Source: Thermothelomyces thermophilus ATCC 42464
Lineage: Eukaryota; Ascomycota; Sordariomycetes; Sordariales; Chaetomiaceae
Reading direction: 5' to 3'
Length of the DNA stretch: 64,000 bases
Assembly (NCBI RefSeq): GCF_000226095.1
Contig: NC_016474.1
Location: 4,712,001-4,776,000, forward strand
The translations under genes were made by a program, and so were the position numbers. Position 1 is the stretch's first letter. Every line of letters starts with the position of its first letter. The notes beneath the pieces are model-generated. The model searched no databases, was not told the origin of the DNA, and worked only from the letters and a program-made list of their open reading frames with translations. Of the stretch, positions 28,501-29,821 are shown one piece after another.

Positions 28501-29407
28501 CAAGCTATTAACGGCATATCACCTACAGACTGACAGACAAACGGAGCGACTAAACCAAGTTATTAAGCAGTATCTCCGCTCTTACATTAACTACTAGCAA
28601 GACGACTAGGTCATACTATTACTAATAGTATAACTTGCTTATAATATAATACCAACGGAAATAACTAAAGTCACACCGTTCTTTGCAAATTATAGATATA
28701 AAGCAGACCTTAGGCAAAGACTAGAGGTCGTAGTGCCAAGAGCAGTAGTCAAAGCAAAACAAATGTACGCACTATATAAGAAGCTTAAAAAGGAACTCGA
28801 GTTTGTCAGAACCAGAATGAAGAACTACTATAATAAACATAGGCTCAAGGGACCTCGCCTATAGAGGGGAGACAAAGTCTACCTAATCGTATAAAACTTA
28901 CAAACCAAGCGACCAAGCACGAAGCTAGACTTCAAGAAGGTCGGACCCTTCGTTATCAAAGAACGAATTTCGACATCTAACTACTGACTATCGCTACTAT
29001 TATCTATATACCTATAGATGGATGTTTTTCATATTTTACTTCTCAAACTAGTACTAAAAAACGCTAAGGTTGCTATATATATCGAAGTAGAAGATAAGGA
29101 AGAAGAATAGGACGTCGAAGAAATTCTAGATTTACGTATTATTAATAGGGAACTATAGTACTTGGTTAAATGGCTCGATTTCGGACCAGAAGACAACTTA
29201 TAGGAACCTATTAAGAATTTAAACTACCCTAAGAAACTGGAACAGTTCTATCGGCAGAACCTAGATCGGCTAAAGGCAAATCTAGGATAGAACCAAAAAT
29301 AGCGCCCTAGTTAACGACGTTAACGCTACCATTAAGCTATATAACGGCCCCCGATTCCTGCTATTCTACTGCCTCCAATTTGTCTAGATTTGACAAACCC
29401 CGTATGA
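25587..29407 (+). pseudogene. E3 pol remains (PR-RT-RNaseH-IN-chromodomain)
   Basis: In the -1 frame relative to gag. Protease near 25748 with DSRTE for DSGAE. Reverse transcriptase from FVPKKDGKL near 26605, with intact YLDDILIFS at 26939. RNase H TDASDYAI near 27382. Integrase zinc domain about 28040-28160, core with ITDRDTKF near 28430 and TDRQTERLNQ near 28530, and GPF/Y module near 28940. Chromodomain 29105-29270 (DVEEILD...YLVKWLDFGPEDN). A Gln/Pro-rich tail ends at TGA 29405, a stop not explained by RIP. The tail overlaps the end of the antisense gene. Confidence 0.87.
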
Positions 29408-29821
29408 CTATGTCTGCCCCCTTCTCCACCAGGAACTCTCGTTATTCACGGACCCGAGTCAGACAGGCTAATGCCTCGGAAGCTTTATATTAATATTCTC
29501 GTAGTAAGGCTTCGGCCTCTTTCTCTTTAGCCTTCAAATGACGTTGCTTACGTATAATACAATCTACTACGTTACGATTAGAGATATACTCTTATAGGGA
29601 AATAGGAACTTACAAGAAGAAACTAGAACGCCAGAACTATTGTAAGCACGACCCTAACGTATGTAAGCCTTATAGCGACGAGATTTTTCAATCATTTTAC
29701 ACACTTAGTTATACTCTGTGTAATGAGAACACGCTATCACTACGAACCCGTGATCAGAAATAAACTAAGCTAAACGCTTACGACAAACAGATGCTAGGGA
29801 TCTACGCGTGTCAGATAGCAT
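29337..29821 (-). pseudogene. E3 antisense accessory gene: Cys6 cluster + coiled coil, spliced
   Basis: Opposite strand to gag-pol. ATG at 29821. The cluster at 29731 down to 29642 is spaced C-x2-C-x6-C-x8-C-x2-C-x6-C, with first and third Cys intact and the others Tyr. The intron from 29613 to 29567 has a consensus donor GTAAGT and acceptor GTAG, phase 1. Exon 2 then reads, broken only by TAA/TAG, a long charged helix (KEKEAEALLREY near its start, VEKGADIVIRGLSNLDKLEA later) that fits a coiled coil. The frame joins correctly only if the intron is removed. It ends at about 29337, inside the antisense of the pol tail. Function unknown; the Cys spacing suggests a zinc-cluster DNA-binding domain. 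Confidence 0.75.
29567..29613 (-). other. intron of E3 antisense gene
   Basis: 47 bases, donor GTAAGT, acceptor CGTAG, phase 1. Without its removal the coiled-coil frame is not continuous with the cysteine cluster. Confidence 0.65.

Follow-up and report, generated by a model that had tools for sequence, protein, structure and literature searches.

Some long terminal repeat (LTR) retrotransposons carry an accessory gene on the strand opposite to gag and pol. The antisense genes of the plant aORF-3R group (Grande gene23, RIRE2, Retand TRP28) are suspected, in the accounts consulted, of a nuclear or DNA-binding role. In fungi, an extra antisense gene, brtn, has been reported in the Boty-like elements of Botrytis (Zhao et al. 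2011, Virology): as far as the accounts consulted go, it lies on the opposite strand between pol and the 3' LTR of an element with a CHROMO domain in its gag-pol. The literature, in the parts consulted, calls the role of antisense accessory genes of LTR retrotransposons undetermined. Here we analyse a gene that resembles brtn in these respects, the two being compared by description only. It belongs to chromodomain-containing Ty3/gypsy elements of Thermothelomyces thermophilus ATCC 42464 (a 38.7-Mb genome in seven contigs). The window analysed is a stretch of 64,000 nucleotides (nt), positions 4,712,001-4,776,000 of one contig. Its elements, E1 to E6, have LTRs of about 415-450 nt and are damaged by repeat-induced point mutation (RIP).

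A first-pass annotation of the window had noted in every copy an antisense gene with a zinc-cluster-like cysteine pattern, and had read it as a DNA-binding regulator or a silencing or integration cofactor without a named family. The gene is real, protein-coding and conserved between species. The first interpretation is upheld in part, by a coding frame, a Zn2Cys6 spacing, an agreeing predicted fold and a long helix that follows. The absence of a named family is not: brtn had been reported, and UniRef gives the name 'Zn(2)-C6 fungal-type' to four homologues among the matches listed. The overlap of the gene with pol and the hypervariability of both the gene and the U3 region of the LTR are additions to that annotation. 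A DNA-binding regulator is in our view the best reading, backed in most types by repeated, type-specific candidate sites in the LTR promoter.

The gene lies on the antisense strand, immediately internal to the 3' LTR and convergent with pol, and encodes about 190-200 residues. In E3 (type II), where it is damaged by RIP, it occupies 29211..29821 on the minus strand. The start at 29821 is as first annotated, but the end at 29337 is not: the true stop is at 29211, overlapping pol. By homology to types III and V, exon 1, with the cluster, is placed at 29821-29615 and exon 2, with the probable coiled coil and the acidic tail, at about 29582-29211. The frame passes the pol stop (29334-29336) by about 125 nt, in a tail-to-tail overlap with the 3' end of pol; some four-fifths of the gene (29337-29821) lie outside the pol frame and the last 40 or so codons overlap it.

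All six frames were found where the first-pass annotation had placed them; two are incomplete. Three are of type I: E1 (7830..8490, plus strand; exon 1 begins at 7830 and exon 2 at about 8100, with a stop near 8490), E2 (14888..15277, plus strand; exon 2 alone, exon 1 being deleted) and E4 (48893..49400, minus strand; an E1-type copy with an internal deletion of about 160 nt). E5 is of type III and resembles the protein MYCTH_77342 (42600..43249, minus strand; exon 1 at 43249-43031, exon 2 down to 42600), while E6 is of type IV (56295..56972, plus strand; start placed by hand from the reading frame). These types are defined by gene and U3, and two more, V and B, occur elsewhere in the genome. 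E1-E2 (7277-21620) and E5-E4 (36260-49958) look like tandem pairs with one shared LTR, and the end LTRs of E4 are only 76% alike.

Open copies exist in the same genome. The E5 frame matches MYCTH_77342 (168 residues, same strain), and a genome search with this protein gave 177 matches, of which about 150 were listed and supply the type V counts. Type V has at least 18 places with a stop-free coiled-coil exon, at least nine of which also have a stop-free cluster exon. Each of these 18, compared by eye, overlaps on the opposite strand an open pol frame of 1264 residues with a chromodomain. For example, at the type V locus L061, pol (with Chromo, integrase zinc-binding and Tf2-type SH3 domains) ends at 3201, and the antisense gene runs from an ATG at 3733 through a 66-nt GT-AG intron (3525-3460) to a stop at 3077, overlapping the end of pol like that of E3. 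The type V protein is also present in the databases (P0040), spliced at the predicted junction. The type V intron (L061:3460-3525 and other places) contains a long poly-T tract, whose length may be reflected in the different lengths of the type V antisense frames (133 versus 246-248 residues). Twelve type B matches have a pol frame of 1287 residues; in the one whose 3' end was examined, L071, the antisense homologue has no intron. Types V (18 places) and B (12 full pol frames) are open and near-identical within each family, while very many related genome copies are RIPped, and our guess is that V and B have spread recently without RIP.

A family protein match was obtained in 75 of the 77 loci searched (some being overlapping views of one place), with a convergent chromodomain within 600 nt in 74 of the 75. 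The remaining locus is L071, whose sequence was taken without the chromodomain part; a chromodomain adjoins it in the genome. The two loci with no protein match, L075 and L077, belong to type IV and match at the DNA level. As to capture of a host gene, no unlinked host homologue was seen among the loci inspected, which cover part of the MYCTH_77342 genome matches, and no homologous loci were found in viral and bacterial genome collections or plasmids.

In other fungi, a search with MYCTH_77342 yielded 27 proteins. A search with alignment A2 yielded 162 at E <= 0.001, of which the 120 listed provide the names and nearest-relative comparisons given here. They come from Corynascus, Staphylotrichum, Canariomyces, Chaetomium, Apiospora, Neoarthrinium, Verticillium, Colletotrichum, Thyridium, Pyricularia, Gaeumannomyces, Fusarium, Cordyceps, Hirsutella, Cryphonectria, Microdochium and Xylariaceae, all of which we take to be Sordariomycetes. 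Some types are closer to foreign proteins than to those of their own genome. Exon 1 of type III shares 76% identity with Corynascus P0002 versus 56% with type V; exon 2 of type I shares 61% with Canariomyces P0050 versus 41% with type III, and its exon 1 gives a tie. Type B reaches 71-77% identity with database proteins and 80% with a Chaetomium fragment, versus about 35% with the other types. For types II, IV and V no relative nearer than their own-genome types was present among these matches. Since some homologues carry the C-terminal tail SGGT..VS.GS, a part that overlaps pol here, we infer that the homologues elsewhere also sit in elements.

The class pattern of Zn2Cys6 proteins is C-x2-C-x6-C-x5..12-C-x2-C-x6..8-C. 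As first annotated, the spacing x2-x6-x8-x2-x6 is legible in E1, E3, E4 and E5, with Cys or with Tyr or a stop instead. The longer first loop of E6 (x8 instead of x6) recurs in its better preserved relatives L080 and L081, where none of the six cysteines is missing and the pattern is C-x2-C-x8-C-x8-C-x2-C-x6-C. The pattern is complete in 110 of 132 homologues. It has the spacing 2-6-8-2-6 in 54 (clade A, which falls within the class pattern), 2-7-9-2-7, with loop 1 one residue longer, in 43 and another spacing in 13. The 22 without it are mostly fragments lacking exon 1, or show Cys to Tyr changes of the kind that RIP would make.

An AlphaFold model of the homologue P0009 agrees with this assignment. 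A Foldseek comparison with the PDB gave 27 matches, all of them Zn2Cys6 proteins, and the model superimposes on Leu3 over 37 residues (root-mean-square deviation 1.7) and on Lac9 over 33 (1.6), so that the predicted fold is that of a Zn2Cys6 cluster. The model has a helix at residues 69-151, with a predicted local distance difference test score of 94-99 across the block 81-140; this long helix is probably a coiled coil. The first loop of such clusters is typically basic, with R or K at loop positions 1, 3, 4 and 6. Here position 3 carries K or R in 49 of 65 homologues and position 6 in 31 of 65, and the second loop is strongly basic. Sequence searches of the PDB are not used as proof: profile A2 met Lac9 only at E = 3.1 and otherwise coiled coils and other proteins, and P0009 alone found no Zn2Cys6 chain. 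Weak Pfam and NCBIfam matches to other, mostly coiled-coil, families were disregarded as unrelated.

Selection on the protein is visible between types V and III, where transversions fall on codon positions 1, 2 and 3 in the numbers 29, 21 and 52 (p = 0.0006). These two types also have a common intron position, and an insertion occurs there in 6 of 18 aligned homologues. An intron could be retained in a gene that lies on the strand other than that of the genomic RNA. A substitution test within one type (type II plus-strand copies) was powerless because these copies differ by almost no transversions; they look as if they arose in one burst that RIP hit later.

Since RIP yields transitions only, transversions reveal the older divergence, and we used them to compare the four window types, I to IV, in bins of 250 columns. 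From R-U5 through gag and pol the mean is 0-1%. The antisense gene reaches 21-29%, approximately the level expected by chance, and the U3 of the 5' LTR 19%; the 3' LTR bins, in which U3 is mixed with constant parts, give 13% and 5%. The picture is similar when types V and B are added, a comparison of 3' ends only in which type B has no pol part: pol does not exceed 1% nor R-U5 2.2%, and the stretch before the LTR shows 0-11%, the gene 17-25% (about 24-25% when shuffled) and U3 11-24%, with the lowest U3 values among types I, II and III. A stretch of 79 nt before the LTR is identical in V and III (L061:3790-3868 and L063:3725-3803), and its two neighbours, the gene and U3, differ at about chance level.

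The type of the gene is also that of the U3 in 86 of 87 rows, or in 77 of 78 places once nine repeat views have been removed by hand. The only disagreement is at L052, where a solo LTR of type IV sits inside a type III gene and the flanks overlap by 5 base pairs (bp), as for a target duplication; the element's own 3' LTR is of type III.

All six types show the same U3 layout: a CCAAT box, or two of them (reading CTAAT in types I and II, which are RIPped), a variable stretch and then TATATA. Between CCAAT and TATA, four of the six have a clearly repeated type-specific candidate site. In type III, as seen in the well-preserved L063, GGATCAC alternates with its reverse in six half-sites exactly 17 bp apart, giving GGATCAC-N10-GTGATC pairs. 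The 3' LTR of E5 (43372..43800, plus strand) has such alternating GGATCAC and GTGATC sites at 43460, 43478, 43494, 43512 and 43528, and its 5' LTR (36260..36688, plus strand) also has a type III U3. The candidate site is GTGATCAC in type II, GATCGCA in type B and GGTGATAA in type V. In E3 (both LTRs on the plus strand), sites of the GTGATCAC type are repeated in the U3 of the 3' LTR (29955..30369; 10-nt windows at 30050, 30069, 30078, 30092 and 30121), and the 5' LTR (22883..23297) has sites of the same kind at 22978, 23020, 23030 and 23049. Inverted pairs with a spacer of N11-N12, one mismatch being allowed, occur in types I and IV, whose U3s are represented by the 3' LTRs of E1 (7277..7701, minus strand) and E6 (55730..56178, minus strand).

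The count of the top U3 6-mer was reached by none of 1000 dinucleotide shuffles in types II, III and B, and that of the type V 8-mer by none of 500; R-U5 and mid-gene controls were unremarkable in the 6-mer test. Genome-wide there are 87 copies of GGATCAC-N10-GTGATCC and none of the reversed control. Of the 50 places listed, judged by eye, 48 have a spacer that is one of those of type III or departs from it by transitions, and two also differ by a transversion.

Zn2Cys6 dimers with a coiled coil, for example Gal4 and Put3, bind inverted half-sites at a fixed spacing. Judging from sequence, we consider it probable, though by a long way not certain, that the antisense gene encodes a Zn2Cys6-like regulator that, as a dimer, recognises the U3 sites of its own type and so controls its own LTR. 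As both LTRs receive a copy of U3, a single protein could have two targets, the sense promoter (5' LTR) and the sequence upstream of its own gene (3' LTR). Whether it would activate or repress is close to even, and our guess leans slightly to activation because of the acidic tail.

A number of observations weigh against such a regulator. Gene and U3 are only about 100 bp apart, so that their agreement in type may be mere linkage, and over 10 pairs of types gene distances and U3 distances show a weak correlation (Spearman 0.37). Of 1000 shuffles, 376 equalled or exceeded the top 6-mer count in type IV, 315 in type V and 19 in type I (weak). With two mismatches allowed, type II sites number four in R-U5 against six in U3, and type V sites three against five. 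An open scan for inverted 7-mer pairs gave a preferred spacer in type III only, and the candidate sites are based on GATC or GTGAT and not on the CGG triplets that are the usual Zn2Cys6 targets. The check on antisense codons proposed in the first-pass annotation is divided: the bias to position 3 between V and III has no counterpart in V-IV and III-IV, and the other type pairs are mixed. As regards the fold, none of the Foldseek matches is significant singly (none at E <= 0.001), and first-loop positions 1 and 4 are basic in only 6 and 5 of 65 homologues. Pfam Zn_clus (PF00172) matched 8 of 18 scanned homologues across the six-Cys stretch, never at the gathering score (best 19.6 bits, for P0020, versus a cut-off of 21). 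Because it stays below this cut-off and has only part of the basic loop, we call the protein, with its N-terminal cluster, linker, long helix and acidic tail, Zn2Cys6-like.

VANDAL elements, which are DNA transposons, provide another model. Their VANC proteins in Arabidopsis bind short motifs that are arrayed in the element encoding them, with a specificity that shifts with the motifs, according to the parts consulted (PMC5735166). A variable gene with U3 arrays is formally the same pattern, and the antisense protein could likewise bind its own motif arrays to undo host silencing, motif and protein diverging together, instead of being a classical promoter regulator. We regard this as unlikely: the VANC motifs are described, in those parts, in one orientation while the type III sites alternate, and a position between CCAAT and TATA suggests promoter control.

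We would also give only a small chance to an accessory protein with a structural, RNA-binding or integration-targeting role, U3 varying on its own and travelling with the gene as its neighbour. This would leave unexplained both the variability of the gene, which equals that of U3 on a constant gag-pol, and the regular sites of the dimer type in type III. The weak correlation of distances nevertheless favours it, as does the identity of the 79 nt in V and III, because of which the two sides could have changed independently; Tnt1 is a known case of hypervariability in U3 alone, from the parts consulted (PMC1838419).

It is very improbable that the antisense transcript, and not the protein, is what matters, limiting the element by pairing with the 3' end of pol into double-stranded RNA. 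The convergent overlap of about 125 nt would allow it, and a review of antisense genes, in the part consulted, discusses such a role, but conservation across species, the six retained cysteines, the V-III codon bias and the common intron position all weigh against it. That the frames are open by chance, or owe their conservation to the opposite strand, might be suspected from the last 40 or so codons, which overlap pol, but is refuted by the database homologues in many species and by the four-fifths of the E3 gene that lie beyond the pol stop.

The Zn2Cys6-like regulator can be extended to a system resembling immunity groups, which we put forward tentatively and would not be surprised to see fail. 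A constant body would carry interchangeable, ancient pairs of a Zn2Cys6-like dimer and its cognate U3 operator array, some of them common across species; pair diversity would be maintained and gag-pol homogenised by recombination. If each type regulated only its own kind, types could coexist like phage immunity groups. Each version would be equipped as if with its own switch and key on a shared body. If this is true, the pairing of regulator and promoter, both hypervariable, on a constant body would amount to a new form of retrotransposon self-control, and promoter turnover would be explained as a change of specificity. In addition, the function of such a gene becomes directly testable, because a recognisable predicted DNA-binding fold, natural open copies and candidate sites are present in the same element.

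A literature search, mostly of open-access texts, found no description of a Zn2Cys6-like antisense protein or of its pairing with U3. The accounts of brtn consulted mention neither a zinc cluster nor a U3 pairing. The aORF-3R genes belong to plant elements and have other domains (TRP28 and others), with no paired U3 variability described in the accounts consulted. HBZ of human T-cell leukaemia virus is, according to the accounts consulted, likewise an antisense nuclear protein of a retrovirus; it is a bZIP protein. Tnt1 has a similar hypervariable U3 on a constant body, and no partner gene is mentioned for its U3 subfamilies in the parts consulted (PMC1838419). VANC and VANDAL share with our proposed pairing an element-encoded, sequence-specific protein and own-element motif arrays, both diverging, as described in the parts consulted (PMC5735166), although VANC is a different protein. 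The antisense protein itself is most readily compared with Gal4, Put3, Hap1 and Leu3. It differs from them in being short and encoded by a retrotransposon, in its partly basic first loop and in its GATC- or GTGAT-based candidate sites, and is like them in its cysteine spacing, its N-terminal cluster, the helix after the linker and the predicted fold.
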